Below, in pieces: positions 11,617 through 38,067 of a stretch of DNA of 40,070 bases. A program made the translations under genes and the position numbers. The stretch lies in NCBI RefSeq assembly GCF_001552375.1, contig NZ_BCRB01000032.1, positions 1 through 40,070 on the forward strand. Direction: 5' to 3'. The notes under the pieces were generated by a model. It was not told the DNA's origin. It worked only from the letters and a program-made list of their open reading frames with translations, and did not search any database. Positions within the stretch are counted from its first letter, which is position 1; every line of letters starts with the position of its first letter. The DNA is from Cellulomonas iranensis NBRC 101100 = JCM 18110. GTDB lineage: Bacteria; Actinomycetota; Actinomycetes; Actinomycetales; Cellulomonadaceae.

Positions 11617-11622
11617 AAAGTA
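11617..11622 (-). promoter_or_regulatory. Possible -10 (TACTTT) for gmd
   Basis: TACTTT on the minus strand lies 35 nt upstream of the gmd ATG at 11582 and would give a short leader. If the alternative start at 11627 were used, this element would lie inside the coding region. Confidence 0.3.
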
Positions 11623-11631
11623 GCCATGTTT

Positions 11632-11667
11632 GTCCCTTTCGCGGGACCTTGTGGTGGAAAATCACCC
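11632..11667. promoter_or_regulatory. Divergent promoter region with GTCCC hairpin and TCACCCG box
   Basis: GTCCC-N6-GGGAC (11632-11647) is a short inverted repeat. AAAATCACCCG follows, with TCACCC at 11662-11667. The box lies 32 bp upstream of a TACGTT -10 (11700-11705) for the plus-strand CDP-alcohol phosphotransferase gene. The same box occurs in the other divergent promoter regions of the EPS locus. It is a candidate activator site; no regulator is identified. Confidence 0.45.
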
Positions 11668-11699
11668 GTCCGCCGCGGCACGGGCGACCCCCGCGTCGG

Positions 11700-11705
11700 T
11701 ACGTT
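11700..11705 (+). promoter_or_regulatory. -10 element (TACGTT) for the CDP-alcohol phosphotransferase-wzx unit
   Basis: TACGTT lies 48 nt upstream of the ATG at 11754. The -35 position shows no consensus, which fits an activator-dependent promoter. Confidence 0.35.
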
Positions 11706-11753
11706 CGACGGGTGCGCCCGCGCCGGCGCACCACGACGGCAGGGAGGACCCCC

Positions 11754-12479
11754 ATGGAGGTGTCGGTGGTGCGCCGCCTCGCGACCGCGCAGAAGTCCGC
11801 ACGGGGCGTGTCCCTCTACTCGCGGCACGTCAACCGCCCGTGGGGTCGTCTGCTCGCGGCCGCGGCCGTCCACCTGGGGCTGTCCGCCCAGACCGTGACC
11901 TACCTCTCCGCCGCCGTGACCGCGACGGCAGCGCTGCTGCTCGCGCTCGTGCCGCCGTCGGTGGCGCTCGGCGCGGGCGTCGCCGTGCTGCTCGCGCTCG
12001 GCTTCGCGCTCGACTCGGCCGACGGGCAGGTCGCCCGGCTCACGGGCACCGGGTCGCTCGCCGGCGAGTGGACCGACCACGTCGTCGACGCCGGGAAGAT
12101 GGTGCTCGTGCACGCCGCGGTGCTCGTCGGCTGGGCCCGCTGGGACGTCGTCGACGGCGCGTGGCTGCTCGTGCCGCTCGCGGCGCAGCTCGTCGCGACC
12201 GTCGGGTTCGCCGGCGGCACGCTCGCCGAGCTGCTGGCCCGCAGCGCCCCGGACGGCGACGACGGGCCCACGGCCCCCCGCCCGCCGTCCACGGCGCGCG
12301 CGCTCGCCCTGCTCCCCGCCGACTACGGCGTGCTGTGCTGGACGTTCGCGCTGTGGGGCGCGGGCACGGCGTTCCGCTGGGCGTACGCGACGGTCGTGCT
12401 GCTCACGGCCCTCGTGGTCGTCGCGCTGCTGCGCCGCTGGTTCGCGGGCCTGCGTCGGCTCGCCGGGGCCCGCCCGTGA
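11754..12479 (+). CDS. CDP-alcohol phosphatidyltransferase-family membrane protein
   Basis: A 241-residue polytopic membrane enzyme. The CDP-alcohol phosphotransferase signature D-x2-D-G-x2-A-R-x8-G-x3-D-x3-D is complete in [18 protein letters not shown] and EWTDHVVD (about residues 86-111). The family moves a phospho-alcohol from a CDP-linked donor to a lipid or polyol acceptor at the membrane. AGGGAGG 6 nt before the ATG supports the start. The gene overlaps the flippase gene by GTGA, so the two are translationally coupled. This context suggests a role in glycan decoration or lipid supply rather than general phospholipid synthesis, but donor and acceptor are unknown. Confidence 0.85.
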
Positions 12480-13783
12480 CGGAGGCCGCGGGAGCGCGCG
12501 CACGGCTCGGCGGGGTCGCGGCGGTCGCCGACCAGGGCCTGTCGAGCCTCGGCAGCATCGCGCTGCTCGTGCTGGTCGCGCGCCGCTCCCCCGCCGAGTC
12601 CTTCGCCGTCTTCTCGCTCGCGTACGTGGTCTTCACCGTGCTCCTGGGCCTCGTGGCCGCGTACGTCGGCCAGCCGCTCGTGCTCGTGCGCGACCCGGTC
12701 GCGCGGCGCCAGGCCGCGGGCGACGCGCTCGCCGCCACCGCCGCCGTCGCGCTCGCGCTCGGCGCCGCCGCCGTCGCGGCGGGGCTCGCCGTCGGGGGCG
12801 GCACCGCGCACACGTTCGCCGCGCTCGGCGCGGTGCTCGTCGTGCTGCTCACGGTCGAGGTCGCGCGGTACGCGTTCGCGGCCGCGCGCGAGCCGCACCT
12901 CGCGCTCGCGGTCGACGCCACCAAGGTCGCCGTGCTCGTCGCCGTGCTCGCGCTCGTGCCCACCCCGACGCCCGCCGCCGCGGTGCTCGCCTGGGGCGCG
13001 GCGTACGTCCCCGCGCTGGTCGTCGCGCTCGCCCTGCTCGCGCGCCGCGTCGCCCGGCCCCGGCGCCCGTTCGCGGCCCTGGTCGCGCGCGACCACCTGG
13101 GACGACGCTTCGCGACCGAGTTCGCCGTCGGCAACGGCTCGAGCCAGCTGACCGTCCTGGGGCTCGGCACGTTCGGCACCCCCGCGGCCGTCGGCGCCCT
13201 GCGGGGCGCGTCGACCGTGTTCGGGCCGCTCAACGTGCTGCTCACCGCGTCGACGTCGTTCGGGCCGCCCTACGTCGGGCGGCTGGTCGGCGCCCGCGCC
13301 CGGGTCCGGGCGGCGGCACGGCTCGGCGGCGCGCTCGCGGTAGTCGCCGGGCTGTGGGGCCTGACGGTGCAGCTGCTGCCCGCGTCCGTGGGCCGGCAGG
13401 TGCTGGGCGACACGTGGCAGCACGCGCACGCGCTGTTCCCGGCGACCACCGCGCAGTACGTCGCGATGGCCCTCGGCTCGGCCGGCATCCTCGCGCTGCG
13501 CGTCGTCGCACCGCGCGCGACGCTCGCGATCCAGGTCGTGTTCTCGGCCACGACCGTCGTGCTCGTCGTCGCCGGCTACCTCGTCGGCGGCGTGCTCGGC
13601 GCGGCCTGGGGCCTCGCGCTCGGCTCGGCGCTCAAGGCCGTCGCGCTGTGGGTGCGCGCCGCACGGCTGCGGGGCTCGGCCCTGCCGGACGACCTCGCCG
13701 CGCCCACCGACCGCGACGGCACGGCGCCGCGCGCAGCGACCGTCGGCGCGGCCTCGTCGGCGTCCGACCAGCGCCGCATCTGA
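12476..13783 (+). CDS. Polysaccharide flippase, Wzx/MATE-like
   Basis: A 435-residue, very hydrophobic polytopic protein with roughly 12 predicted helices (for example [48 protein letters not shown]). Short Arg-rich loops fit the MOP/Wzx fold that moves undecaprenyl-linked repeat units across the membrane. Sequence identity to named Wzx cannot be judged by eye, so the call rests on topology and place. The GTG overlaps the preceding stop as GTGA. The C-terminal tail (after about residue 400) is polar, low-complexity and Ala/Asp/Arg-rich. Its last 208 bp are antisense to the 3' end of the polymerase gene. Confidence 0.78.
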
Positions 13784-15276
13784 CGGTCCCAGAGCACCAG
13801 CACCAGGCCGCACGCCGCGAGGATCGCGAGCCGCCCCATGGCCTGCAGCAGCGACCCCCGCAGCAGGATGAACGCGTACCCGGCGACCACGGGCACGACG
13901 ACGAGGACCGGGTCGCTCACACGCGCGCGCCGGAGCGCCACGAGGTAGCGGCGGTCCGCGCGCGCCGCGGCGAGGCCCAGCGCCGCCGACCCGAGGACGA
14001 CCGCGACCCAGCCGCCGTCGACCCACAGCTCCGCCCACCACGGCGACGACAGGTTGGTGTTGACCGTGCCCATCCACTCGCCCACCAGGACCCCGGTGTC
14101 CTGCGCCTTGCCGGGCCAGACCTGCCGCGGCACGAAGAACAGCACGGCGCCGAGCAGCTGCCGCCCACCCGTGTGACCCTCGCCGACCTGCGTGTACGTC
14201 ACGGTGTTGGCGACCATGACCATCTGGTCGAAGTCCTTCATCGCCATGGTCGTGAGCACCGACTGCGACTCCAGGGGCCGGTACCCCGCCTCGTCGTAGC
14301 GGAACCGGTCGGCGTAGGGGAAGACGACGACCGCCGCGACCAGGCCGCCGACCAGGACGGTCCGGTACCAGCCGCGCCGCGCACCGACCAGCACGAACAC
14401 GGTCGACAGCAGCACGGTGAGCGCCCAGTAGCGCGGGTTCGAGACGGGGTTGTTGACGACGACGTTCGCGCCGAGCAGCGCGAGCCAGGTGCCCACGAGC
14501 ACGACGGACCGACGAGCCGGCCGCACCGTCAGCAGCACCCGCGTCAGCGCCAGGAGCATCACGAGCACCGGCATCGTGCCGCCGCCCCGCAGCAGCGCAG
14601 ACCCCACCTGCGAGCCCGCGTCGGCCAGGCCCGCCGCGCCGATGCTCTCGCTGATCGCCTGCCGCGACGAGAAGAAGGTCGCGGGCCCGCCGAGCCGGAC
14701 CACGAGCACCACGCTCACGAGCAGCGCGACCGCCGAGCCCGCGACGAGCAGGCGGTAGGGCCGCAGGTCCGACGGCGGTCCGGTCACGGCGCGGCCGCGG
14801 GGGGACGACGGCGCGGCCGGCGCCACGCGCGCCGCGACCGCGCCGTCCGCGTCCGTCGAGCCGCGTGCACCGGACGCGGCCGGGCGACGACGTGCCACGA
14901 CGAGCTCCGCGACGTCGAAGGCGACGCACCCGACCAGCACGAGCAGGATCGCGGTCGTCAGGTGGTCGCGCGTGCCGACGAACAGCGTGGGGAACTGCCC
15001 GATGACCAGCTGCGCGAGCGGCGCGATCCCCATCGCGGTGTACACGAACAGCCAGAACGCCCCCTGCAGCGGGCGCGTGAGCCCGCGCAGCAGCACGAAC
15101 GCCAGACGCGTGCCGGCGTACGCCGTGAGGAGCAGCTGCAGGACGAACGCGAGGTCGCGCTCGCCGGTGCCGCGCTGCAGCCCGACGACGACGGGGAGCA
15201 TGCCGCCCAGCACGACCACCAGCGGGGCCGCCCACCACTGCCGCAGGTCGCCCGCCTGCGACGAGCCCGCGCTCAC
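13576..15276 (-). CDS. Polysaccharide polymerase, Wzy/O-antigen-ligase-like membrane protein
   Basis: A 566-residue polytopic protein with about 11-12 hydrophobic segments ([68 protein letters not shown]). A large periplasmic-type loop near residues 325-400 contains YADRFRYDEAGYRP and QVGEGHTGGRQL. This layout fits oligosaccharide repeat-unit polymerases. The GTG at 15276 is preceded by a weak GGGTGAGAG ribosome site. The C-terminal tail after about residue 500 is Ala/Ser/Arg-rich and overlaps the convergent flippase gene by 208 bp. Assignment as Wzy rests on topology, loop and cluster position. Confidence 0.75.
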   Translation of the reverse strand: MSAGSSQAGDLRQWWAAPLVVVLGGMLPVVVGLQRGTGERDLAFVLQLLLTAYAGTRLAFVLLRGLTRPLQGAFWLFVYTAMGIAPLAQLVIGQFPTLFVGTRDHLTTAILLVLVGCVAFDVAELVVARRRPAASGARGSTDADGAVAARVAPAAPSSPRGRAVTGPPSDLRPYRLLVAGSAVALLVSVVLVVRLGGPATFFSSRQAISESIGAAGLADAGSQVGSALLRGGGTMPVLVMLLALTRVLLTVRPARRSVVLVGTWLALLGANVVVNNPVSNPRYWALTVLLSTVFVLVGARRGWYRTVLVGGLVAAVVVFPYADRFRYDEAGYRPLESQSVLTTMAMKDFDQMVMVANTVTYTQVGEGHTGGRQLLGAVLFFVPRQVWPGKAQDTGVLVGEWMGTVNTNLSSPWWAELWVDGGWVAVVLGSAALGLAAARADRRYLVALRRARVSDPVLVVVPVVAGYAFILLRGSLLQAMGRLAILAACGLVLVLWDRQMRRWSDADEAAPTVAARGAVPSRSVGAARSSGRAEPRSRAARTHSATALSAEPSARPQAAPSTPPTR

Positions 15277-15282
15277 GGTCTC

Positions 15283-15327
15283 TCACCCGCCGAGGCGCTC
15301 CCGGCGCCGCTCGGCGAGCGGTAGCGT
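15283..15327 (+). promoter_or_regulatory. TCACCCG box and TAGCGT -10 for the GT4 gene
   Basis: TCACCC at 15283-15288 is 33 bp upstream of TAGCGT (15322-15327), which lies 59 nt before the GTG at 15387. The spacing repeats that seen at 11662 and 24553. On the other strand, however, the same bases are part of the ribosome site of the polymerase gene, so this copy is the weakest. Confidence 0.3.
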
Positions 15328-15386
15328 GACGCGCGGCCGGCGCGACCCCGTGCTCGGCACCCCCCTCGAGCAGGAGCGACGCCGAC

Positions 15387-16568
15387 GTGCCGACCGCCAG
15401 GACGACCGACCCCGCCGCGACCGTCGAGGGGCTGCGGGTGCTCCACGTCGTCACGCTGCACACGCCGGAGAACGCGTTCGGCGGCCCCACGCGCGTGGCG
15501 CTCAACCTCGCGCGCGGCCTCAACGCGCGCGGCGGCCGTGCGCGGCTGGTCGCGCTCGCCGACGGCTTCGACGACCTCCCGGACGCGGTCGAGGACGTGC
15601 CGGCGCGGCTCTACCGGCGCCGGCGCCTCGCGCCCGCCCTGGAGGTCAGCGGCATCACGTCGATCGCGCTGGGCGCGGACCTGCCGCGCCTGGTGCGGCG
15701 GGCCGACGTGGTGCACGTGCACCTCATGCGCGACCTCGTGACGCTGCCCGCCGCCGCGGTGGCGCTCGCCGCGGGCGCACCGCTCGTCGTGCAGACGCAC
15801 GGCATGGTGGACCCGAGCAGCAAGCCGCTCGCGCGGTTCTTCGACGCGCTCGTCGTGCGCCGCGTGCTCCGCCGCGCGGACGTCCTGCTGCACCTCACGG
15901 ACGAGGAGCGCGACGACGTCCGCGCGACCGCGCGCACCGCGCTGCCGCACGCACGACGCCTGGTCAACGGGGTCGAGCTGCAGCCCCGCCGGCCGCTGCC
16001 GCAGGCCCCGCGCGTGCTGTACCTGGCCCGGCTGCAGGACCGCAAGCGTCCCGAGGACTTCGTGCGCTGCATGCCGGCCGTGCTGGCGCAGCACCCCGGC
16101 GCGCGGTTCGTGCTCGCCGGCTCGGACTCCGGGGCGCTGGCACGCACGCTCGCGGTCGCCGACGAGCTGGGCGTGCGCGACTCCCTCGACGTGCTGGGCG
16201 GCCTGCCGCACGACGAGGCGCTCGCCGAGCTCGCGCGCGCGAGCGTCTACGTCCTGCCGTCCGTCGGCGAGACGTTCCCGGTCTCGGTCCTCGAGGCCAT
16301 GGCGTGCGGCGTGCCGGCGGTCGTCACGTCGTCGAACGGCCTCGCGCCGGACGTCGCCGAGGCGGGCGCGGGCGCCGTGGGCGACGACGTCCCGACGCTC
16401 GCCGCGGCCGTCGCGCGGCTCCTCGACGCCGACGCGAACGACGCGGCGTCCCGCGCGGCGCACGCGCTGGTGGCGGCGCGCTACTCGATCGACGCGGTGG
16501 TCGACGAGCTGGCGCACGCCTACGCCGACGCGCGCGCGGCTCATCCCGCGCGCCGCGCGACGGCCTGA
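15387..16568 (+). CDS. GT4-family glycosyltransferase
   Basis: A 393-residue GT-B retaining glycosyltransferase. The N-terminal domain has LRVLHVVTLHTPENAFGGP followed by TRVALNLARGL, with VVHVHLMRDL and VVQTHGMVDPSSKPLARFF further on. The C-terminal domain shows VLYLARLQDRKRPEDFV and the GT4 signature VYVLPSVGETFPVSVLEAMACGVP with the E-x7-E pattern. It should transfer a sugar from a nucleotide donor to the growing lipid-linked unit in the cytoplasm. GTG start; AGGAG lies 11 nt upstream, slightly long. The 3' end overlaps the convergent GT2 gene by 28 bp (16541-16568). Donor and linkage are unknown. Confidence 0.9.
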   Translation: MPTARTTDPAATVEGLRVLHVVTLHTPENAFGGPTRVALNLARGLNARGGRARLVALADGFDDLPDAVEDVPARLYRRRRLAPALEVSGITSIALGADLPRLVRRADVVHVHLMRDLVTLPAAAVALAAGAPLVVQTHGMVDPSSKPLARFFDALVVRRVLRRADVLLHLTDEERDDVRATARTALPHARRLVNGVELQPRRPLPQAPRVLYLARLQDRKRPEDFVRCMPAVLAQHPGARFVLAGSDSGALARTLAVADELGVRDSLDVLGGLPHDEALAELARASVYVLPSVGETFPVSVLEAMACGVPAVVTSSNGLAPDVAEAGAGAVGDDVPTLAAAVARLLDADANDAASRAAHALVAARYSIDAVVDELAHAYADARAAHPARRATA

Positions 16569-17398: not shown

Positions 17399-17442
17399 GC
17401 CCACCACCCGCCTCTCGTCGCGCGCCCATCGTGCCCGACGCG

Positions 17443-17537
17443 GACCCCCATACGGCGCAAAGCGGACAGAATCACCCGCTCGCCGGGGCCCTGCGGAGCG
17501 ACATCACCCGGACGCCGCGGGAGGCCGCCTGTACAGT
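17443..17537 (+). promoter_or_regulatory. Wzc promoter region with two TCACCCG boxes and TACAGT -10
   Basis: TCACCC occurs at 17472-17477 (after AGAA) and 17504-17509 (after ACA), followed by a TACAGT -10 at 17532-17537, 36 nt before the GTG at 17574. The gaps from box to -10 are 54 and 22 bp. GACCC lies 24 bp before the first box, echoing GTCCC 24-25 bp before the boxes at 11662 and 24553. No -35 consensus is seen. Confidence 0.45.
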
Positions 17538-17573
17538 CAAAACCTCCGAAACCCGACGAGAACGGACACCCTC

Positions 17574-19187
17574 GTGGAGATCGCACGCTTCGTCCAGCTG
17601 CTGCGCGCGCGGTGGCTCGCCGTCCTCGCGTGCGTCGCGCTGGGCACCGGCGCCGGGCTCGCCCTGCCGCTGACCATGACCCCCGTGTACGAGGCCCGCG
17701 CGCAGACGTTCATCACGCTCGCTGACGCGTCCGCGCCCGACGCGTCGCTCTTCGCGTCGTCGCAGTTCACCATGAGCCGGCTCAAGTCCTACACGATGCT
17801 CGTCGGGAGCCCGGGGGTGCTGGGGCCCGTCATCGCCGACCTGGGGCTCGGCACGGACGTCGCGACGCTGCGGGACGCCGTCACGGCGAGCAACCCCAGC
17901 GGCTCGTTCATCATCTCGGTGACCGCGCAGTCCGGGGACCCGGCGACGGCCGCCGCGATCGCGAACGCCGTGTCCGAGCGTCTGGGCACCGCGATCGAGG
18001 ACCTCGAGGCGTCGTCCGCGGGTGCGCAGGTCTCGGCGCAGGTGGTGCGGGAGGCCGAGCCGCCCGCCTCGCCGACGTCGCCGCGGCGCAAGCTCGCGCT
18101 CGCGCTGGGGCTGCTGGCCGGGCTCGCCGTCGGGCTCGGGCTCGCGGCGGCGCGCCAGCAGCTCGACCGTTCCGTGCGCACCGCCGAGCACCTCAAGCAG
18201 GTCACGGGCGCCGGCGTCCTGACCGAGGTGCCCCTCGACCCGTCGATCGCGGGCGTGACGCGCTCGCTGTCCGTCACGGAGTCGTTCCGCACGCTGCGCG
18301 CGAGCCTGCGCTTCGTCGACGTCGACCACCCGCCCCGCGTCATCGCGGTCTCGTCGGCGGTGGTCGCCGAGGGCAAGACCTCGACGGCGGTGAACCTCGC
18401 CGCGTCGCTCGCCGCGAGCGGCAGCACGGTGTGCCTGGTCGACGCCGACCTGCGCCGGCCGGGGGTGTCGCAGCACATCGGCATCCTCGACTCCGTGGGG
18501 CTCTCCGACACCCTCATCGGGGAGTACCCGCTGGACGACGTGCTGGTCGACTGGGAGGACGGCGTCACGGTGCTGCCCGCCGGCACGCTGCCGCCCGACC
18601 CCGCGGCGCTGCTCGGCTCGCAGGCGATGACGGCGACGGTCGCCGCGCTGCACGAGCGCTTCGACTTCGTCATCCTCGACACGCCGCCCCTCACGCCCGT
18701 CGTCGACGGCGCGGTGCTCGGCGCCCTCGCCGACGGCACGATCCTGGTGGTGCGGCACGGCAGCACCGACGCCGCGGCCGTCGCGCGTGCCGCCGAGACG
18801 CTCGACGACGCCGGCGCGCGGCTGCTGGGCACGGTCCTCAACCGCGTGCCGCGCACGCGGCGGCGCCGCGCCGAGTACTCGTACGTGCCGCGCACACGGA
18901 CGGGCCCCGGCCCCGCACGGCACGCGGACGGCGCACGCGCGGACGACGCGGCCGAGGGCGCTGCGGCCGAGGGTGCTGCGGCCGGGGCGCCGGACGGTGC
19001 CGCGGCGAGCTCGCCGGACGACGCGACCCGCTCGCTCGCGCCCGACGACGTGGCCCCCTCGCCCGCGCCGGACGACGCCGAGCAGGAGCACGCCGCGCAG
19101 GAGCACACTGAGCAGGAGCACACCCCGCGGGCCGCGACGACGCAGCACCGCACCCCGCGCGCCGCGGCCGGCGCCGCCCGGCCGTGA
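17574..19187 (+). CDS. Polysaccharide co-polymerase / BY-kinase (Wzc-like)
   Basis: A 537-residue fusion of a Wzz-type chain-length regulator and a cytoplasmic tyrosine autokinase that controls polymer length and export. Membrane helix 1 is at about 12-31, an extracytoplasmic domain follows, and helix 2 is at about 171-192. The kinase carries Walker A SSAVVAEGKTST (about 260), Walker A' VCLVDADLRRPG and Walker B FDFVILDTPP (about 365). BY-kinases usually end in a Tyr-rich cluster; here only EYSY (about 436) precedes a tail of about 100 residues, almost Tyr-free and rich in Ala/Asp/Glu/His. That tail is built partly from 15-bp repeats. The ribosome site is weak. The Wzb-like phosphatase overlaps by GTGA. 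Confidence 0.92.
   Translation: MEIARFVQLLRARWLAVLACVALGTGAGLALPLTMTPVYEARAQTFITLADASAPDASLFASSQFTMSRLKSYTMLVGSPGVLGPVIADLGLGTDVATLRDAVTASNPSGSFIISVTAQSGDPATAAAIANAVSERLGTAIEDLEASSAGAQVSAQVVREAEPPASPTSPRRKLALALGLLAGLAVGLGLAAARQQLDRSVRTAEHLKQVTGAGVLTEVPLDPSIAGVTRSLSVTESFRTLRASLRFVDVDHPPRVIAVSSAVVAEGKTSTAVNLAASLAASGSTVCLVDADLRRPGVSQHIGILDSVGLSDTLIGEYPLDDVLVDWEDGVTVLPAGTLPPDPAALLGSQAMTATVAALHERFDFVILDTPPLTPVVDGAVLGALADGTILVVRHGSTDAAAVARAAETLDDAGARLLGTVLNRVPRTRRRRAEYSYVPRTRTGPGPARHADGARADDAAEGAAAEGAAAGAPDGAAASSPDDATRSLAPDDVAPSPAPDDAEQEHAAQEHTEQEHTPRAATTQHRTPRAAAGAARP
18948..19121 (+). repeat. 15-bp tandem repeats in the Wzc tail
   Basis: Two sets of in-frame 15-bp units lie in the 3' part of the kinase gene. 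At about 18948-18980 the unit encodes AAEGA. At 19080, 19095 and 19110 near-identical 12-bp cores (GAGCAGGAGCAC-like) recur, encoding EQEHA, AQEHT and EQEHT. Such repeats can change copy number by slippage, altering tail length without a frameshift. Confidence 0.6.
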
Positions 19188-19834: not shown

Positions 19835-19875
19835 CGTCGGAGCCGGAGGATCCCGCGGCCACCCCGCGGCACGAC

Positions 19876-19920
19876 GACGCCCGGCGGGCGGGACCGTCGC
19901 GGCCCCGCCCACCGGGCGTC
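19876..19920. terminator. Bidirectional terminator hairpin
   Basis: GACGCCCGG and GGGCGGG on the left pair with CCCGCCC and CCGGGCGTC on the right, giving 16 bp interrupted by one opposed C/A pair, with an 11-nt loop. It lies between the convergent phosphatase (stop 19834) and lipoprotein (stop 19928) genes and can serve both transcripts. Confidence 0.7.
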
Positions 19921-19927
19921 GCGTGCG

Positions 19928-20404
19928 TCAGCGGCCGGCCTGGTCGACGTACGTCGACAGGTCGGGGCACAGGTGCTCGACCGCGTCCGGCCACTGCGCC
20001 GCGTCCGGGTCGTCGCGCAGCGCCTCGACGAGCACGTCGGCGTCGACCGCCGCGAGGTAGCGCATGCGGGCGCACGCCTCGACGCCCGCCTCGAGCACGG
20101 CCGCCGGGTCGACGCCGTCGGGCACGCGCCCCTCGAGGTACGCGTCCGCCTGGTCGTCGTCGGGCGCGGGCGGCTCGACGGACGTGAGGTCGGGCGGCGG
20201 GGCCGACGGGTCCACCGACGGTGCGGCGGCCGGTCCCGTGGGCGACGCCGAGGGCGCGGCCGACGCCGACGCGCCGTCCGCCGCGTCCCCGGCACCCCCG
20301 GCACCGGGTGCGGGCGTGGCCGCGGTGCACCCGGCGAGCAGACCGCCCGCGAGCGCGAGGACCGCCACCGGTGCGCCGAGCGCGCGGCGCGTCCGGGCGC
20401 TCAC
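19928..20404 (-). CDS. Small secreted lipoprotein, DUF732-like
   Basis: A 158-residue exported lipoprotein: positive N-terminus (MSARTRRALG), hydrophobic core and lipobox LLAGC. A long low-complexity Ala/Pro/Ser/Asp linker follows. A C-terminal helical domain of about 80 residues has two Cys (VEACARMRYLAAVDADVL and EHLCPDL) spaced as in DUF732-like small exported actinobacterial proteins. The GTG overlaps the stop of the large propeller/LamG gene as GTGA, so the two are likely coexpressed and may act together at the cell surface. Function is unknown. Confidence 0.7.
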   Translation of the reverse strand: MSARTRRALGAPVAVLALAGGLLAGCTAATPAPGAGGAGDAADGASASAAPSASPTGPAAAPSVDPSAPPPDLTSVEPPAPDDDQADAYLEGRVPDGVDPAAVLEAGVEACARMRYLAAVDADVLVEALRDDPDAAQWPDAVEHLCPDLSTYVDQAGR

Positions 20405-23400
20405 GACGCCTCGAACGTGAGCGTGAGCTGCGGACGGTACGACGCCGTCGTGTGCTCGGAGGACCACAGCCACACGTTGTCCGTGCTCGTGGACGTCAGC
20501 GCGAGCGTCTGCGTCGCCCCGAGCCGGCCGTCGAACACGAGCGGGTCCAGCGGCGTCGTGTACACCGTGCTGGGCACCGACCCGCCGGGCCACGTCCCCA
20601 CGACGACGCCCGAGAGCGCCGGCCGCCCGGCGTACACGAGCGTGGCCTGCGACCACCCGGACTCCGCCCACTGCCAGGTGTACGGGTCGACGGACCCCGC
20701 GCTCGCCGCCGTGGTCGTCCGGACCCGCAGCGCGGCGCCCGTCAGGCGCAGCCCGGCGGGTGCCGGCGGCAGGTCGAACTTGAGGTAGGTCGCCTGGAAC
20801 GGCGTCCCGCCGCGCGCGCTGAGCTGGTTGAAGGTGCCCTGCGGCGTCGTGGGCGCGCTCTGGTTGACCCACGTGTCCTCGGTGGGCGCGAGCACCACCG
20901 TCACGGGGTCCGTCGACGGTGCGACGGTGGCCGTGGCCGGGTCCGACGGCGGGCCCGTGTTGCCGGCGGCGTCGCGCGCGACGACGCGGTACGTGTACGA
21001 CCCGATCGCGAGCCCGGTGTCGGTCCACGTCGTCGCGGTGACCTGGGCGACGCGCGTCGCCTCCGACGGGACGAACCCCGGGTCGGTCGAGCGGTGCACG
21101 TCGTACCCGGTGACCCCGCGGTCGTCGGTCGCCGCCGTCCAGGACAGCTGCACGGTCGTGCCCGTGACGCCCGCCGTCAGGGCCGTGGGCGCCGAGGGCG
21201 CCGCGGTGTCCGGGCCCGTCACCGTCACCGTGACCGGTGCGCTCGCGGCGCCGACGTTGCCGGCGGCGTCCCGGGCGAGCACGCGGTAGGTGTAGGTGCC
21301 CGGCGCGAGCGCGGCGTCGGCGTACCCGGGTGCCGCGACGTCGCCCAGGTGCGTCTCGGCCGAGGGCGTGAACGCCGGGTCGCTCGAGCGGTGCACCTCG
21401 TACGCCACGACGCCGACGTCGTCGGTCGCCGCGGACCACGTGAGGGCCGCGTCGCTCTCGCCGGCGGTCGCCGCCAGGTCGCCCGGCGTCGAGGGCGCCG
21501 TGAGGTCGGGCGGCGGCGTGCCGGTGCCGAGCGCGTGGTGCTGCGCGACCTGCGCGGCCGTGAGCACGGCGGGGTACACCGCGACCTCGTCGACCGAGCC
21601 CACCAGGTACGGCGAGCTCGACCCCCATGTCGGGTCTCCGCCGACCTTCCAGTACCCGGTGTAGGCCTGCGCGGCGCCCTGCGGGTTGGTGCCCACGAGC
21701 GCGCCGTCGACGTACAGGCGCATGCCGTCGGCAGGCGACTGCGTCGCGACCACGTGGTGCCACGCGCCGTCGTTGTACGGCGCGGGCGTCGTGATGGTGT
21801 TCGCCGACCCCGTCCAGACGCCGAAGACCAGACGTCCGTCGTCCTGCAGGTACACGTGCCGGTCGTAGTTGCCCGACAGCCCCGTGCGGTTGTCGCCGAA
21901 CCCGATGAGCTTGCCGCCGCGGTTCGTGGTGCTGCTGAACCACAGCTCGAGGGAGTACGTCGACGGGTTCGTCGTGCTGAGGTCGCTCACGACGTTGCCG
22001 CCGCCGTTGCGGAACCGCACGCCGCGGCCGTCGGTGCCCACCACGGGGCTGTCCGCGCCGAGCGTGACCGCGCCCTGGTAGCTGCCCGTCGCGCCGTACG
22101 GCCCGGAGTCGGCGGCGGTGGTGCCGCCGGTCTCGCCGAGCCGCCAGAACAGGTCGGGGCCGAGCGCGTGCACGGCCTGGCCGTACGCGTCGGGGGGCGG
22201 GGTCTGCCCGGGCAGCGTGCGCCCGGACGCGGTGTAGTGCGCCTGGACCTGCGCCGCGGTCAGCGCGGTCGGGTACACCGCCGTCTCGTCGACGTCCCCG
22301 CCGAAGTACCGCGACGACGGCTGCGACGGCCACCCGTCGAGGTTGTCGCCGCCGACCCGCCAGCTCCCCTTGTAGGACTGCGCCGTCGTGGTCCCGTTGC
22401 GGCCCACGGGCACGCCGTCGACGTACATCGTCATGCCGGCGGCGCCCTGCGTGGCGACGACGTGGTGCCACTCGCCGTCGTTGTAGGAGCGCGGGCTCGT
22501 GACCGTCTGCGTCGAGCCGGTGTACACGCCGAACACGAGCTTGCCCGCGTCGGTCATGTAGACGTGCCGGTCGTAGCTGCCGGACGTGCGCAGCGCGGCG
22601 GGCGACATCCGGTTGGACTGCCCGTTCCCGAAGCCCACGATCTTGCCGCCCTGCGTGGACGTGGTCCGGAACCAGGTCTCGACCGAGTACGTCGACGGGC
22701 CCTGCTCGATCCAGTCGCTGTGCGCGGTGCGCCCGTCGCCGAAGCCCATCGCCCAGCCGCCGTCGCCGACGGGGCTCGTCGTCGAGCGGAACGCGGGCGT
22801 GCCGGTGAGCACGCCGTTGCGGCCCTGCCCGGCGGAGTCCCACGCGACGCCGCCCGAGCCCTCCTCGTAGCGCCAGTACAGGGACGGCTGGTCCGCGAGG
22901 ACCGCCGCCGGGTAGGCGACGTCGGACGAGCGGGCTGCGACCGACGCCGCGCCGGACAGCGCGCTCACGTTCGTGCCGTCGGTCGCGCGGACCCGGTAGG
23001 AGTACGTCTGGCCGGGGGTCACCGACGTGTCGACGAACGAGCCCTGGGGGCGCGTCCAGAAGGACGAGGCGACCCGCACGGTCGCGATCGGCGTCGCGCC
23101 GCCGTTGCGGAAGACCTCGTAGGCGAGCTCGGAGTCGTCCGGGTCGACGACGCTGCGCCAGCGCACGTGCACGGCGCCGGTGGTGGTGGACTCGACGGTC
23201 ACGGTGGGGACCGGCGGGGCGCCCGTGTCGACCTGCCCGAACCGCGTGAGGCCCTGCTGCGCGCTGCCGTTGGTCGTCGTGAACTCGCCGCCCACCCACA
23301 GGTACTGCTGGGAGCCCGCGGTGGCGACGGCCAGCGCGCGCGGCCCGATGCTCTCGCCGATGCCGTCGTTCGTGTCGGGGTACCAGCCGGCGAGCTGCGC

Positions 23401-24459
23401 GTCGTCCACGCGCTGCGCCGTCAGGTGGGTCCGCTTGCCCTCGGTGAACCAGCCCATCGACTCGCAGTCGTGCGCGTGGTGGCCCGCGTACAGCAGGCCG
23501 TCGTGCTCGAGCACGGCCTGCGTCGCCCCGAGGCACGTGTCGCGCCACACCTGGTCGAGCGAGCCGTAGGCGAGCGCGAGGCGGCCGTCGAACACGCCGC
23601 CGCCCGTGCCCTCGTTGCCGACGTAGAAGCCCGCCTGGCCGGCGTCGACCGCCTTGGTGACGGACGTGTCCGGGATGAACCCGCGCGGGTAGGTGCGCGT
23701 CACCGCGCCCGTGCCCGCGTCGACGGCGGCCAGCGAGTGGGAGTTGGCGCCCCCGACCGTGAAGAAGTCGCCGCCGAGCATGACCGTGCCGCCGTCGGGC
23801 GAGACCGCGATCGCGCGACCGACCGCGTCGGCGTCGGCCCGCCACGGCAGGAGCGCACCGGTCCGGGCGTCGAGCGCCGCGAAGTAGTCGCGCCGCTCGC
23901 CGCCGACGGTGCGGAAGTCGCCGCCGACGTACAGCACGTCGGGCGTGGCGGCCAGCGCGCGGACCGTCGCGGAGACCGACGGCGCGGTGAACGTCGACCG
24001 GACCGTGCAGGTCGCGACGTCGACGGCCGCGATCTTGTTCGCGTAGGTCGAGTCGACGCGTCCGAACAGGCCGCCCACGTAGAGCGTCGCGCCGTCGGGC
24101 GAGGTCGCGAGGGCACGGACCGTGATGCCGCTGCCGACGCTCAGCTGGGGGCGGCACGACGTGGGCTGGCCCGTCGTCGTGTCGAGCGCCACGAGCCCGG
24201 TCACCGGGATCGCGGAGCCGGACCCGCCGGACGGCGGGCGCAGCTGCGAGAACGTGCCGCCGGCGAACACCTTGTCGCCGGCGGCCGCGAGCGACCACAC
24301 CACGCCGTTGGTCTGCCACGTGGGCAGGCTGTCGGCGCTGAAGGCGACCCCGGGCGTGAGCGCCTGCGCGGGCGCCGCCCCCACGGGTGCGGCGACGAGC
24401 GCCGCCGCACCGAGCACCACCGTCGCCACGGCGGCGACGATCTTCGACTTCCTGACCAC
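20401..24459 (-). CDS. Large secreted propeller/LamG/FN3/CBM96-like surface protein
   Basis: A 1352-residue exported protein with a Sec signal (MVRKSKIVAAV, cleavage near APAQA). Residues about 40-410 are a beta-propeller-like series (VFAGGTFSQL, LYVGGLFGRV, LYVGGDFRTV, MLGGDFFTV, LWVGGEFTT). FN3 is at about 418-505. Two LamG domains at about 510-741 and 753-973 each carry YNDG-WHHVVATQ and a YVDG element. Two FN3 domains follow at about 986-1171, then a C-terminal CBM96/DNRLRE-like domain (LAPTEDTWVNQSAP, TYLKFDLPP). No LPXTG anchor or catalytic motif is seen. It likely binds glycans, perhaps the EPS itself. GTG start with GAGGTGG close upstream. Divergent from the acyltransferase gene. Confidence 0.85.
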   Translation of the reverse strand: MVRKSKIVAAVATVVLGAAALVAAPVGAAPAQALTPGVAFSADSLPTWQTNGVVWSLAAAGDKVFAGGTFSQLRPPSGGSGSAIPVTGLVALDTTTGQPTSCRPQLSVGSGITVRALATSPDGATLYVGGLFGRVDSTYANKIAAVDVATCTVRSTFTAPSVSATVRALAATPDVLYVGGDFRTVGGERRDYFAALDARTGALLPWRADADAVGRAIAVSPDGGTVMLGGDFFTVGGANSHSLAAVDAGTGAVTRTYPRGFIPDTSVTKAVDAGQAGFYVGNEGTGGGVFDGRLALAYGSLDQVWRDTCLGATQAVLEHDGLLYAGHHAHDCESMGWFTEGKRTHLTAQRVDDAQLAGWYPDTNDGIGESIGPRALAVATAGSQQYLWVGGEFTTTNGSAQQGLTRFGQVDTGAPPVPTVTVESTTTGAVHVRWRSVVDPDDSELAYEVFRNGGATPIATVRVASSFWTRPQGSFVDTSVTPGQTYSYRVRATDGTNVSALSGAASVAARSSDVAYPAAVLADQPSLYWRYEEGSGGVAWDSAGQGRNGVLTGTPAFRSTTSPVGDGGWAMGFGDGRTAHSDWIEQGPSTYSVETWFRTTSTQGGKIVGFGNGQSNRMSPAALRTSGSYDRHVYMTDAGKLVFGVYTGSTQTVTSPRSYNDGEWHHVVATQGAAGMTMYVDGVPVGRNGTTTAQSYKGSWRVGGDNLDGWPSQPSSRYFGGDVDETAVYPTALTAAQVQAHYTASGRTLPGQTPPPDAYGQAVHALGPDLFWRLGETGGTTAADSGPYGATGSYQGAVTLGADSPVVGTDGRGVRFRNGGGNVVSDLSTTNPSTYSLELWFSSTTNRGGKLIGFGDNRTGLSGNYDRHVYLQDDGRLVFGVWTGSANTITTPAPYNDGAWHHVVATQSPADGMRLYVDGALVGTNPQGAAQAYTGYWKVGGDPTWGSSSPYLVGSVDEVAVYPAVLTAAQVAQHHALGTGTPPPDLTAPSTPGDLAATAGESDAALTWSAATDDVGVVAYEVHRSSDPAFTPSAETHLGDVAAPGYADAALAPGTYTYRVLARDAAGNVGAASAPVTVTVTGPDTAAPSAPTALTAGVTGTTVQLSWTAATDDRGVTGYDVHRSTDPGFVPSEATRVAQVTATTWTDTGLAIGSYTYRVVARDAAGNTGPPSDPATATVAPSTDPVTVVLAPTEDTWVNQSAPTTPQGTFNQLSARGGTPFQATYLKFDLPPAPAGLRLTGAALRVRTTTAASAGSVDPYTWQWAESGWSQATLVYAGRPALSGVVVGTWPGGSVPSTVYTTPLDPLVFDGRLGATQTLALTSTSTDNVWLWSSEHTTASYRPQLTLTFEAS
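20940..21500 (-). repeat. Tandem FN3 repeat within the LamG protein gene
   Basis: Two adjacent FN3 modules share ATDD-GV--Y-VHRS-DP-F-PS-AT and TYRV-ARDAAGN, indicating a recent in-frame duplication. The two LamG modules at about 21540-22930 are more diverged copies. Confidence 0.65.
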
Positions 24460-24552
24460 GGGCCACCTCGCAACGAACGCGCCATCCCGGTCCGGCCGGG
24501 CGTGGCGACTCTAAGACGCGTATGTCCCGTTTTGCCCTCTCCTGGGGGCTTT

Positions 24553-24597
24553 TCACCCGGATGACCACCCGCGGGGAGCAGCACGCGCCGCTACCGT
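24553..24597 (+). promoter_or_regulatory. TCACCCG box and leaderless-type -10 for the acyltransferase
   Basis: TCACCC at 24553-24558, after GCTTT, is 33 bp upstream of TACCGT (24592-24597). The ATG at 24604 follows 6 nt later, so the transcript would be leaderless; no ribosome site is present. GTCCC lies 24 bp before the box, as at 11632. No -35 consensus is seen. Confidence 0.5.
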
Positions 24598-24603
24598 GGG
24601 CCG

Positions 24604-25155
24604 ATGCCGATCGCACCGCCACCGGCCCGCCGCCACCTGGCCGGGTTCCGCGGCACGGGGTACGACAAGGGTCGCCCGGCCGCCGTGCAGGCGCTGTGGC
24701 TCGCCGTCTCCGGGCTCGTGGTCGTGCGGTGGTGGTGCCCGGCGTCGCTGCGGGCCGCTCTGCTGCGCGCGTTCGGCGCGCGCATCGGCACCGGCACGGT
24801 GATCCGCCACCGGGTCCGCGTGCACTGGCCCTGGAAGCTCACGGTCGGCGACGACACCTGGATCGGCGAGGGCGCCTGGATCCTCAACCTGGAGCCCGTG
24901 ACGATCGGCTCCGACGTCTGCATCTCGCAGGACGTGCTGCTGTGCACCGGGAGCCACGACGCCCGGTCGGCCACGTTCGAGTACGACAACGCGCCCGTCG
25001 TCGTGCAGGACGGCGCCTGGGTCGCCGCGCGCGCGACGGTGCTGCGGGGCGTGACGATCGGCGCCGACGCGGTCGTCGGCGCGACGGCGCTCGTGACGAC
25101 GGACGTGCCGCCCGGGGCGCGCGTGCTGGCGCCGCGGGGGCACGTGGTGCCCTGA
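24604..25155 (+). CDS. Left-handed beta-helix O-acetyltransferase, WcaF-like
   Basis: A 183-residue hexapeptide-repeat acyltransferase. An N-terminal hydrophobic part (ALWLAVSGLVVVRWW) is followed by isoleucine-patch turns (IGTGTVIRHRVRV, TVGDDTWIGEGAWI, PVTIGSDVCISQDVLLCTGSHD, VVQDGAWVAARATVLRGVTIGADAVVGATALV). GSHD supplies the catalytic His of the WcaF/NodL/LacA group. It probably acetylates a sugar of the repeat unit using acetyl-CoA. The start is set by the TACCGT -10 6 nt upstream, implying a leaderless mRNA. Its neighbours are the LamG gene (divergent) and fcl (convergent). Confidence 0.88.
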   Translation: MPIAPPPARRHLAGFRGTGYDKGRPAAVQALWLAVSGLVVVRWWCPASLRAALLRAFGARIGTGTVIRHRVRVHWPWKLTVGDDTWIGEGAWILNLEPVTIGSDVCISQDVLLCTGSHDARSATFEYDNAPVVVQDGAWVAARATVLRGVTIGADAVVGATALVTTDVPPGARVLAPRGHVVP

Positions 25156-25173
25156 GGCGGCACCCGAGACACG

Positions 25174-26139
25174 TCAGACGCGGACGGCCCCGGCCTGCTC
25201 GCGGTACCACGCGACGGTGCTCTCGACGCCCTCGGCGAGGCCGATGCGCGCACGCCAGCCCGTCGCGTGCAGCCGACCCACGTCGAGCACCTTGCGCGGC
25301 GTGCCGTCGGGCTTCGAGTCGTCCCACCGGGTCTCGCCGGTGAAGCCCGTGCTGCTCGCGACCAGGCCGGCGAGCTCGCGGATCGTCACGTCGGTCCCCG
25401 TGCCGACGTTCACGTGCAGGTCGTCGTCGTAGTGCTCGAGCAGGTGCAGGACGGCGTCCGCGAGGTCGTCGACGTGCAGCATCTCCCGGCGCGGTTCGCC
25501 CGTCCCCCAGTTGGTGACCGTCGGCGCCCCCGTGCGCGCGGCCTCGTCGTACCGGCGCACGAGCGCGGGCAGCACGTGCGAGCCCGTCGGCGAGAAGTTG
25601 TCGCCCGGGCCGTACAGGTTCGACGGCATGGCGCTGATCCACGGCAGGCCGTACTGCCGACGCACGGCCTGCACGTGCAGGATCCCCGTGATCTTCGCGA
25701 TGGCGTACGCGTCGTTGGTGCGCTCGAGGGGCCCCGTGAGCAGCGCCTCCTCGGGGATCGGCTGCGGCGCGAGCCGCGGGTAGATGCACGACGACCCGAG
25801 CAGCAGCAGCCGCTCGACGCCCGCGCGCCGCGCGGCGTCGAGCACGTTCACCTGGATGCGCACGTTGTCGGACAGGAAGTCGACCGGCTGCTGCGCGTTG
25901 GCCCAGATGCCGCCGACGCGCGCGGCCGCGAGCACCACGTGCCGCGGGCGCGTCGCGTCGACGAACTCCTCGACGCGCGCGGCGTCGCGCAGGTCGAGCT
26001 GGCCGGAGGGCAGACCGACGAGGTCGGTGAAGCCGGCCGCGCGCAGCCGACGCCAGACGGCGGACCCGACGAGGCCGCGGTGACCCGCGACCCACACCCG
26101 GTCGTCACGGTCGAGCGGTCCGGGGGTGAAGGTCGTCAT
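25174..26139 (-). CDS. fcl: GDP-L-fucose synthase
   Basis: A 321-residue SDR that epimerises and reduces GDP-4-keto-6-deoxymannose to GDP-L-fucose with NADPH. VWVAGHRGLVGSAVWRRL binds the cofactor. LAAARVGGIWAN, SSCIYPRLAPQPIPE and YAIAKI (Tyr/Lys catalytic pair) are diagnostic for Fcl/WcaG, as is MPSNLYGPGDNF. The length matches E. coli Fcl (321). The ATG has AGGAG 4 nt upstream. It lies 16 bp downstream of the initiating sugar transferase gene and so shares its promoter, while gmd is in another unit about 14 kb away. Confidence 0.95.
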   Translation of the reverse strand: MTTFTPGPLDRDDRVWVAGHRGLVGSAVWRRLRAAGFTDLVGLPSGQLDLRDAARVEEFVDATRPRHVVLAAARVGGIWANAQQPVDFLSDNVRIQVNVLDAARRAGVERLLLLGSSCIYPRLAPQPIPEEALLTGPLERTNDAYAIAKITGILHVQAVRRQYGLPWISAMPSNLYGPGDNFSPTGSHVLPALVRRYDEAARTGAPTVTNWGTGEPRREMLHVDDLADAVLHLLEHYDDDLHVNVGTGTDVTIRELAGLVASSTGFTGETRWDDSKPDGTPRKVLDVGRLHATGWRARIGLAEGVESTVAWYREQAGAVRV

Positions 26140-26155
26140 GGTGCTCCTGTCGGTG

Positions 26156-27682
26156 TCAGTACGCGCCGGCGCCCGTGAGCACGGCACGCGCGGTCTTCCA
26201 GATGATCAGCATGTCCATCGCGACGGACCAGTTGTCGACGTACCGCAGGTCGAGCCGCACGGACTCCTCCCACGACAGGTCGGAGCGCCCGCTGACCTGC
26301 CACAGCCCCGTGAGGCCGGGCTTGACGTGCAGACGGCGCTGCACCTCGTCGGGGTACACCGCGACCTCCTCGAGCAGCGGCGGACGCGGCCCCACGACCG
26401 CCATCTCGCCGCGCACGATGTTGAGCAGCTGGGGCAGCTCGTCGATCGAGAACCGGCGCAGCACGCGCCCCACCGGGGTCACGCGCGGGTCGTCGGCCAT
26501 CTTGAACAGCACGCCGTCGCGGTGGCCCGACGCGAGCAGCGCGGCGCGCCGCTCGTCGGCGTCGCGGTACATCGTGCGCAGCTTGTACATCGTGAACGTC
26601 GTGCCGTCGCGGCCCACACGGGTCTGACGGTAGACCGCCCCGCCGGGCGACGTCAGCGCGACCGCGGCCGCGGCGACGAGCAGCACGGGCGACAGCACGA
26701 CGAGCGCGGCACCGGCCATCGTGGCGTCCATGGCCTGCTTGAGCAGCAGCCGCCCGCGGGGCGCACCGACCTCGACCTCGAGCAGCGAGAGCCCGACGGC
26801 CGGGCGGACCGTGAGCCGCGGGCCCGCGACCTCGACGAGGTCGGGCACGACCACGAGCCGCGCACCGGCGCGCGACAGCGCCCAGGACAGCCGCCGCAGC
26901 GCCTCGCCCGAGAGGCACGAGCCCGTCACGAGCACCACCTCGGCGCCGCGGTCCGCGACGACCTGGACCACGTCCGCGACCGCGCCGAGCACCGGCACCC
27001 CGGCGACCTGGTGCGCGAGGTCGACCGACGGCAGGCACACGCCGTCGATGCGGTACCCGTGGTGCGGCGCGCGCGAGAGGTCGCGCACGAGCCTGCCGGC
27101 CGCGAACGGGTCGCCGACGACCACGGTGCGCTGCATCGCGTGGCCGAGCGCGCGGCGGCGCCGCAGCCGGCGCTGCGCGACGAGGCGCACGCACCACGTG
27201 AGCGCGAGCGCGACCGGCACGCCGACGAGCACGTAGCTGCGGGGCACGTCGAGCCGGAACACGTACCCGAGCAGGATGAGCGCGACGACGAACGCGAGGG
27301 CGGCGCGCAGCGCGACCTGGAACTCGCCGGGCCCGTCGCCGGTCTGCCGGCGGCCGTACCCGCCGCCGAACGCGACCAGGAGGACGAACGCCGCCGCGGC
27401 GACGCCGGCGACGACGAGCGACTCCAGCAGCCCGGAGTGCACGCGGTACACGACGGCGGTCGTCGTACCGACGACGGTCGCGTCGCCGCCCGCGACGGCG
27501 AGGGCGTGGCGCACGCGCACGGCGCGCCAGCCGTCGGCCTGCGCGAGGGGGTCGGAGTTGAGGACGGTGCGCCGCCGGACGAAGGGCTCGGAGGACGCCC
27601 ACGACCGACGGGGCTCGAGAGCCCGTCCGCGCCGGTCGTCCCCCTGGTCGCCCCAGACCCGTTCGCCCGCCGTCAGTGTCAT
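26156..27682 (-). CDS. Polyprenyl-phosphate sugar phosphotransferase (WbaP/WcaJ-like)
   Basis: The initiating enzyme: it moves a sugar-1-phosphate, usually glucose or galactose, to undecaprenyl phosphate. The 508 residues contain several N-terminal helices (about 65-165), a CoA-binding-like Rossmann segment (RTVVVGDPFAAGRLV) and the bacterial sugar transferase domain at about 315-508. That domain shows KQAMDATMAGAALVVLSPVL, GPVY-type GGAVYRQTRVGRDG, MYKLRTMY, DELPQLLNIVRGEMAVVGPRP, KPGLTGLWQVSGRSDLSWEE and RLDLRYVDNWS. The ATG has GGGGGAG 2 nt upstream. It heads the wbaP-like-fcl unit and is preceded by a cluster of TCACCC/GGGTGA boxes. Donor sugar unknown. Confidence 0.93.
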   Translation of the reverse strand: MTLTAGERVWGDQGDDRRGRALEPRRSWASSEPFVRRRTVLNSDPLAQADGWRAVRVRHALAVAGGDATVVGTTTAVVYRVHSGLLESLVVAGVAAAAFVLLVAFGGGYGRRQTGDGPGEFQVALRAALAFVVALILLGYVFRLDVPRSYVLVGVPVALALTWCVRLVAQRRLRRRRALGHAMQRTVVVGDPFAAGRLVRDLSRAPHHGYRIDGVCLPSVDLAHQVAGVPVLGAVADVVQVVADRGAEVVLVTGSCLSGEALRRLSWALSRAGARLVVVPDLVEVAGPRLTVRPAVGLSLLEVEVGAPRGRLLLKQAMDATMAGAALVVLSPVLLVAAAAVALTSPGGAVYRQTRVGRDGTTFTMYKLRTMYRDADERRAALLASGHRDGVLFKMADDPRVTPVGRVLRRFSIDELPQLLNIVRGEMAVVGPRPPLLEEVAVYPDEVQRRLHVKPGLTGLWQVSGRSDLSWEESVRLDLRYVDNWSVAMDMLIIWKTARAVLTGAGAY

Positions 27683-27715
27683 GGCTCCCCCGTGGTCCGC
27701 TAGCGTGATGACGAG

Positions 27716-27811
27716 AGGCTAATCGCCCCTTTCGGGGTGATTGGGGGTTAACGTCCGATTTCACCCTCTTCGGGCGGTGATGTCACCCTTGTGCGGGTGT
27801 GCATCGGGTGA
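27716..27811 (-). promoter_or_regulatory. Promoter region of the initiating transferase with six TCACCC-type boxes
   Basis: Half-sites lie at 27735-27740 (GGGTGA), 27761-27766 (TCACCC), 27775-27780 (CGGTGA), 27783-27788 (TCACCC), 27795-27800 (GGGTGT) and 27806-27811 (GGGTGA). A hairpin ATCGCCCC/GGGGTGAT lies at 27722-27741. A TAGCCT -10 candidate on the minus strand is at 27716-27721. It is both the 3' flank of pth and the promoter of the EPS unit, so part of the pairing may serve termination. Confidence 0.45.
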
Positions 27812-37944: not shown

Positions 37945-37995
37945 GGGAGGCGGGACCGGCCGTGGCAGGGGACGGAGGTCACCCGCCGCACCGGG

Positions 37996-38067
37996 CTCCG
38001 CCCCCAGGATTCGAACCTGGACCGCAAGGCTCCAAAGGCCTGCGTGCTGCCGTTACACCAGGGCGGA
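37996..38067 (-). tRNA. tRNA-Gln (anticodon TTG)
   Basis: A 72-nt tRNA on the minus strand. The acceptor TCCGCCC/GGGCGGA pairs fully with the U1-A72 end typical of tRNA-Gln. The D stem is GTGT/GCAC, the anticodon loop is CTTTGGA with TTG at 38033-38035, the variable loop is GCGGT, and the T arm is CCAGG-TTCGAAT-CCTGG. The first pair of the anticodon stem (27-43) reads C/U, a mismatch. CCA is not encoded. The discriminator is G. Confidence 0.93.

Follow-up and report, generated by a model that had tools for sequence, protein, structure and literature searches.

Activator sites made of direct repeats with steps of 21–22 bp are familiar from regulators of the LytTR and AraC types. Two systems of Streptomyces share core letters with the element considered here: the PHO box, for which GTTCACC is given as the consensus (PMC4415409), and the Group I site of BldM, TCACcCgnncGgGTGA, whose half-site is given as TCACCCG (PMC4125116). 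We analysed a window of 40,070 nucleotides, contig 32 (NZ_BCRB01000032.1) of the 3.97-Mb genome of Cellulomonas iranensis NBRC 101100, in which copies of TCACCC (the box) lie in the intergenic gaps of an exopolysaccharide (EPS) locus. Judged from sequence comparison, several separately transcribed EPS genes probably share a single trans-acting regulator, in all likelihood an activator, for which these boxes are the operators. An activator operator is the best reading because the boxes hold a fixed position in either orientation, recur at helical repeats and lie in promoters that lack a -35 element. No account of the box in EPS promoters was found in the accessible part of the open-access literature searched.

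Over the whole window the box is no commoner than chance, as the original prediction had already recognised: TCACCC occurs 18 times against 20.4 in shuffled sequence, and TCACCCG 11 times against 10.1 expected. The excess is local to the EPS gaps. Every listed TCACCC was found in its place, at 11662, 15283, 17472, 17504, 24553, 27761 and 27783 on the plus strand and at 27735 and 27806 on the minus strand, and the five EPS gaps (A to E, 738 bp together) hold nine of the window's 18 copies. The density of noncoding DNA in 19 own-genome stretches chosen regardless of motif (49 in 33.9 kb) predicts 1.07 (P ~2e-6). Without gap E, the other four gaps hold five copies (P 0.002), and the remaining noncoding DNA of the window has five in 2,231 bp.

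This enrichment over background extends to other genomes of the genus. We compared 20-kb stretches around the Wzz homologue of 19 other genus genomes with control stretches of the same genomes, leaving out the own-genome loci L089 and L109 and noncoding runs of <30 or >1,200 bases. Among 7-mers TCACCCG was the most enriched in EPS noncoding DNA, with 39 copies in 26.3 kb against 14 in 36.5 kb of control noncoding DNA (log10 P -10.5), and the top two enriched 8-mers were TCACCCGG (15 vs 1) and TTCACCCG (16 vs 2). TCACCC itself came fifth among 6-mers, after two self-complementary words, which are doubled by the count, and two others. In the noncoding DNA of its own genome as a whole, TCACCCG is not the top word and ranks only ~167th among 7-mers; strongly noncoding-specific there are ACGCTAG, ACGGTAG and AGCCTAG, which probably mark TAGNNT -10 elements.

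Distances below are measured between the initial T of TCACCC and that of TANNNT, a loose match taken as a putative -10 element. Counted in this way, the original distances of 32, 33, 54, 22 and 33 bp from the box end become 38, 39, 60, 28 and 39 bp, and the -10 coordinates agree. Spacing predictions were noted from a first set of loci before a fresh set of 14 was fetched; nine of these are a second EPS locus from a genome already in the first set, such loci as L077/L078 and L115/L116 are closely related, and part of L120, a box without its -10 element, had been seen before the predictions were set. In the fresh loci, 13 of 46 noncoding boxes had TANNNT at 38–40 bp, where 0.5 were expected, with a second peak at 60 bp (four cases); none of 20 control-stretch boxes had TANNNT at 38–40 bp. 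Of the distances originally noted, those of 38–39 and 60 bp recurred in fresh loci, but not that of 28 bp: spacings of 27–29 bp numbered five in the first set (window included) and none among the 46 fresh boxes, and were dropped.

When the count was anchored on the -10 element, with no box assumed, the sharpest position-specific words were TCACCC, along with shortened versions of it, at 39 bp and GGGTGA at 45 bp. That count took some TANNNT more than once; in a recount over 258 unique TANNNT, the forward box stood at 38, 39 and 40 bp in 3, 16 and 6 cases, with distal copies at 60, 61 and 62 bp in 7, 2 and 3, and the reversed box at 44, 45 and 46 bp in 4, 9 and 8, with distal copies at 66, 67 and 68 bp in 2, 4 and 3. 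A second rule appears here, a reversed box (GGGTGA) 44–46 bp upstream of TANNNT. By class of DNA, 172 TANNNT of the first EPS set had seven forward boxes (background 0.68) and eight reversed (0.43), 77 of the fresh EPS loci had 15 (0.26 expected) and 11 (0.55), and seven of the window had three (0.14 expected) and three (0). Neither form occurred at 152 TANNNT in control stretches of the same genomes or at the three of the own genome's second Wzz locus, and 68 from other families had one forward box and no reversed one. The forward rule alone (offsets 37–41) applies to 22 of 296 EPS-locus genes in 10 protein families. Around 160 EPS boxes, 14 pairs lay 21–22 bp apart; paired copies were usually in the same orientation.

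The initiating sugar transferase provides the best-sampled promoter. Of 81 genus genomes 79 gave a match to it, and among the best 30 promoters GGGTGA stood at 45 or 46 bp in every one, including the 18 whose genomes were not in the EPS-stretch sets. Aligned, they share the footprint GGGTGAAAT-CGG(A/G)CA-n-AA at -57 to -40, followed by the -10 region TA-TAGCCT-CC; T is found at -2 of the box in 30/30 and A at -3 in 25/30. The original remark that these promoters lack a recognisable -35 held here, since no TTGACA-like hexamer is conserved in the 30; between the footprint and the -10 region the conserved bases are single ones, A at -32 and A at -23. The window copy at 27749-27766 (minus strand) is one of two places in its genome with one mismatch to the 15-base footprint core. 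Allowing up to two mismatches, the core has 12 matches genome-wide vs one for the control, among which only the site in gap E has TANNNT at 44–46 bp; one further match, inside a predicted gene, has it at 43 bp. The exact 15-mer was found in at least 118 stretches of genome contigs, and of the 80 records listed four are Cellulomonas and the rest scattered. As a separate observation, in one group of genomes (G002, G005, G030, G063 and G075) the DNA that separates the operator from the -10 element contains another inverted repeat, centred on GTACTGATC(A/G)GTAC, possibly a further operator.

The gene for a secreted LamG protein was matched in 56 of 81 genus genomes; of the best 30, 15 belonged to earlier sets. 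A box at 38–39 bp forward or 45–46 bp reversed precedes 23 of these 30, and 10 of the 15 in genomes new to the analysis. Orientation varies among the orthologues, with 13 forward and 10 reversed boxes, while the position is constant. Alignment by the strong arm gives A-(C/G)-T-T-C-A-C-C-C-G as the core, with A at -3 in 15/23. A second copy lies about two turns upstream in 19, by eye in the same orientation in 17 of them. Together with the sugar-transferase promoters and the spacing in fresh loci, these results establish conservation upstream of orthologous EPS genes. The palindrome CGGGTG-WW-CACCCG was rejected as the full operator on the ground that its second arm is not conserved; with up to two mismatches allowed, the own genome has 86 sites where the control gave 39, and the listed matches start at one mismatch.

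The boxes of the window and their putative -10 elements are as follows.

11660..11668, plus strand: box A (AATCACCCG), between gmd (minus) and the CDP-alcohol phosphatidyltransferase-like gene (plus)
11700..11705, plus strand: putative -10 element TACGTT of the gene at 11754-12479
11617..11622, minus strand: putative -10 element TACTTT of gmd
15283..15289, plus strand: box B (TCACCCG), doubtful, 39 bp from TAGCGT at 15322-15327
17470..17478, plus strand: box C1 (AATCACCCG), before the Wzz/AAA gene at 17574, 60 bp from TACAGT, which is the distal position of tandem pairs
17502..17510, plus strand: box C2 (CATCACCCG), 28 bp from TACAGT at 17532-17537, a non-standard spacing
24551..24559, plus strand: box D (TTTCACCCG), between the LamG gene (minus) and the acyltransferase gene (plus)
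24592..24597, plus strand: putative -10 element TACCGT of the hexapeptide acyltransferase-like gene
24508..24513, minus strand: putative -10 element TAGAGT of the secreted LamG/CBM96 gene
27749..27766, minus strand: proximal box E, putative operator GGGTGAAATCGGACGTTA, 45 bp from TAGCCT
27783..27788, minus strand: distal box E (GGGTGA on this strand), 22 bp upstream of the proximal box and 67 bp from TAGCCT
27716..27721, minus strand: putative -10 element TAGCCT of the sugar transferase gene

Gaps A and D are good in both directions, box A lying 38 bp from TACGTT and, reversed, 45 bp from TACTTT, and box D 39 bp from TACCGT and, reversed, 45 bp from TAGAGT. The boxes at 17472 and 17504 (gap C) and at 15283 (gap B) are weaker. 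Box B fits the 39-bp spacing, yet is doubtful because it has C at -1, where T or A is usual, and overlaps the ribosome site of the gene at 13576-15276 on the minus strand, a coincidence that the original prediction had rightly pointed out. The original prediction placed a box in every divergent EPS promoter region; boxes do occur in all the gaps, but gap E is flanked by two minus-strand genes and is not divergent, its copies at 27761 and 27783 forming a tandem pair for the sugar transferase. A common spacing for every divergent gap was not upheld, gap B being doubtful and gap C, before wzz, non-standard. The G(T/A)CCC noted upstream of three copies is present there, but in related loci GTCC has no fixed offset; a fixed upstream GTCC/TGTCC was accordingly discarded, although CGGACA (reversed TGTCCG) is part of the sugar-transferase footprint.

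Could the boxes be chance, a common GC-rich word read together with ribosome sites (GGGTGA) and loose -10 matches? Whole-window counts at expectation, the modest genome-wide rank of the 7-mer and the ribosome site at 15283 speak for such an explanation, and for box B it remains likely. For boxes A, D and E it is opposed by the enrichment over control noncoding DNA, the sharp spacing in fresh loci and the 30/30 sugar-transferase promoters, and as an account of the whole set we regard it as highly improbable.

Genes here and in the compared stretches were called with a home-made codon model. Those served by these promoters belong to a locus that encodes gmd, a CDP-alcohol transferase, glycosyltransferases, a Wzz/AAA protein, a low-molecular-weight phosphatase, a secreted LamG/CBM96 protein, a hexapeptide acyltransferase, an epimerase and the initiating sugar transferase, flanked by mfd (Pfam) on one side and pth (N-terminal sequence) on the other.

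10599..11582, minus strand: gmd, GDP-mannose 4,6-dehydratase, for an EPS sugar precursor (Pfam PF16363)
11754..12479, plus strand: CDP-alcohol phosphatidyltransferase-like membrane protein (Pfam PF01066, E 8e-6)
13576-15276, minus strand: gene whose ribosome site overlaps box B
17574..19187, plus strand: Wzz + AAA chain-length/tyrosine-kinase-like protein (Pfam)
20401..24459, minus strand: secreted LamG/Fn3/CBM96 protein of 1,352 amino acids (Pfam)
24604..25155, plus strand: hexapeptide-repeat acyltransferase-like protein (Pfam PF00132)
26156..27682, minus strand: initiating sugar transferase, Bac_transf (Pfam PF02397)

Between positions 11000 and 28500 of the window no RNA element matched Rfam at gathering scores. 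Elsewhere in the window, a tRNA-Gln (anticodon ttg; 37994-38067, minus strand) directly adjoins a TCACCCG at 37979.

We propose that a regulator would read the core A-N-TTCACCC(G) in both orientations, bound with the box start ~51 bp (forward) or ~57 bp (reversed) before the inferred start site, ahead of a TANNNT without a -35 element. A second copy, often 21–22 bp (two turns; 22–23 bp when reversed) farther upstream, may take part, and the bound regulator would replace the absent -35. A fixed position near -45 to -57 without a conserved -35 hexamer is among the usual marks of activator-dependent promoters. The original prediction of an activator bound near -45 fits the fixed spacing and the missing -35 hexamer, which suit an activator at -45 to -57; activation itself, like the binding protein and its oligomeric binding, is what we infer. 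A repressor or a regulator of dual sense could use the same operators, as spacing and conservation are what is known and these do not fix the sign of the effect; we consider it unlikely, given a position at ~-45 to -57, spacing held within 1–2 bp and no -35 hexamer conserved in 30 promoters.

In gaps A and D one box lies ~39.5 bp from both -10 elements and, because it is correctly placed for each, a single bound complex may serve both divergent genes. Across loci, boxes serving both directions number four of 160 (two of them in the window), where marginal frequencies predict ~3: joint service is possible, with no sign of selection beyond the independent frequencies of forward and reversed boxes. 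A bolder form of the activator reading, which we put forward tentatively and think rather less probable than its opposite, is that an orientation-independent operator turns on two divergent EPS transcripts at once, and that a new regulator of Cellulomonadaceae EPS loci, able to bind it from both sides, takes the place of the -35 for the two genes, the box flipping between orthologous promoters while keeping its place.

Besides that near-chance frequency of two-way boxes, several results weigh against a shared activator operator. Correctly spaced TANNNT is missing from 119 of 160 EPS noncoding boxes, and TCACCC is wholly absent from the noncoding DNA of two of the 19 first-set EPS loci (L072 and L076). 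Of 30 Wzz-gene promoters 12 carry boxes, but the forward proximal spacing occurs in none of them; two have a reversed box at 44 bp. Seven of the 30 LamG loci have no spaced box; in six of these the match begins near residue 355, and the real start may lie upstream of the stretch examined. The second arm expected of a symmetric dimer is not conserved in LamG promoters. Away from the locus, 225 TANNNT of the own genome have one forward and three reversed boxes, all three in motif-chosen stretches. The reversed rule was found in pooled data and then held in the LamG and sugar-transferase sets, whose promoters are related by descent. Among protein clusters common to at least two EPS loci, compared by their N-terminal sequence (proteins confined to one locus were listed below 360 residues), no DNA-binding regulator appeared, a CheY-like protein in two loci being the sole regulator-like cluster seen. 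Neither the own genome's 15 OmpR-type genes nor the genes in its 28 NarL-type loci have a correctly spaced box.

In a search of 248 genomes across the order, limited to 350 bp before the estimated start, a second genus of the family contributed a single promoter (L411), in which the footprint stands at 44 bp; in a further genus genome (L418) it stands at 46 bp. Two of the 24 loci from other families, both of one family and with an identical box, have a reversed box at 45 bp without the footprint; the other 22 lack a reversed box there. A regulon outside the EPS locus was rejected: in 742 kb of the own genome, a sample partly chosen for WWTCACCCG sites, TANNNT stands at 38–40 bp for two of 157 noncoding TCACCC. 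Separately, in two genomes of another family (L433, 1122-1217, and L429) the sugar-transferase promoter has rows of 10 and 6 TCACCC, many 10–12 bp apart, and the row of L433 ends near a TTCACC pair 11 bp apart; these arrays hint at a many-site operator for an OmpR/PhoP-type regulator.

If the shared activator operator is real, the polysaccharide loci of Cellulomonas have a cis-regulatory code that can be put to the test. An operator present in 30/30 promoters would be a ready bait for its regulator, with GGGTGAAATCGGACA as the form for capture, and an orientation that flips at constant position would be an unusual constraint on how an activator acts. Our first guess at the candidate is an OmpR/PhoB-like protein binding head to tail, because of the 11-bp and 21–22-bp periodicity; the OmpR-type matches listed for 11 genomes include none inside EPS loci, the nearest being ~17 kb away (positions compared by eye).

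A member of that class already has a described site of similar letters, and the boxes might be PHO boxes through which PhoP switches EPS genes with phosphate supply. The core letters match those published for Streptomyces (GTTCACC; PMC4415409), at 25 of 30 genus pstS loci two repeats stand 11 bp from each other (TTCACC in both at 23, one TTCATC at the other two), and the TCACCC rows in two genomes of another family, many ~11 bp apart, point the same way. The EPS boxes themselves differ: around 160 of them TCACC shows no excess at ±11 bp, the PHO profile scores z -0.9 at the 95 with A or T in front, and pstS half-sites have G at -2 in 48/48, which EPS boxes do not as a rule, and never A at -3, where sugar-transferase boxes have T at -2 in 30/30 and A at -3 is found in 25/30 of them and in 15/23 LamG boxes. 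Control by PhoP is on this evidence quite unlikely. The pstS loci compared were L130-L159, 25 of them with the classical PHO repeats, and a phoP-like gene adjoins pstS in the own genome.

NarL-type regulators with an unusual or missing receiver are encoded in the own genome at L187 (contig 2, beside a guaB-like gene) and L191 (contig 79); their proteins resemble BldM and WhiI of Streptomyces, and the L187 protein is a candidate BldM orthologue. The boxes could be half-sites of BldM, acting as a homodimer or with another partner. In favour are this protein of unusual receiver next to a gene with a guaB-like start and a published half-site, TCACCCG, identical to the EPS box (PMC4125116). But the right half-site is not conserved, CGGGTGA at offset 9 averaging 2.04 of 7 matches in 24 spaced boxes, like other offsets; the conserved flanks (A at -3, T at -1) lie on the opposite side; and this palindrome would need one centre for both orientations, whereas the modal spacings put it at 31.5 bp from the -10 for forward boxes and at 47.5 bp for reversed ones. 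We therefore judge BldM very unlikely as the regulator of these promoters. On contig 2 (L002, 8003-8018), a perfect 16-bp palindrome, TCACCCGTGCGGGTGA, has the form of the Group I site as published; it lies between glycosyltransferase-like and small membrane-protein genes, near a guaA-like gene (N-terminal sequence). A LytTR regulon was rejected, as LytTR proteins occur in 11 of 36 genus genomes and in none of the box-rich G016, G020, G032, G022, G019 and G003.

Set beside the known systems, the shared operator that we favour for the EPS boxes resembles each in part. With the PHO box and PhoP repeat units of actinobacteria it shares a TTCACC core, helical periodicity and a site upstream of promoters, but it has no 11-bp consensus tandem, reads A-N-TTCACCC instead of GTTCACC and occurs in either orientation. 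With the Streptomyces sites of BldM (Group I) and of BldM-WhiI (Group II) it shares the half-site TCACCCG, whereas no second half is conserved and the conserved flank is on the other side. Like direct-repeat sites of the LytTR and AraC types, it comes as a pair of copies separated by about two turns of the helix, usually in the same orientation; in this genus 25 of 36 genomes, box-rich ones included, lack LytTR proteins.

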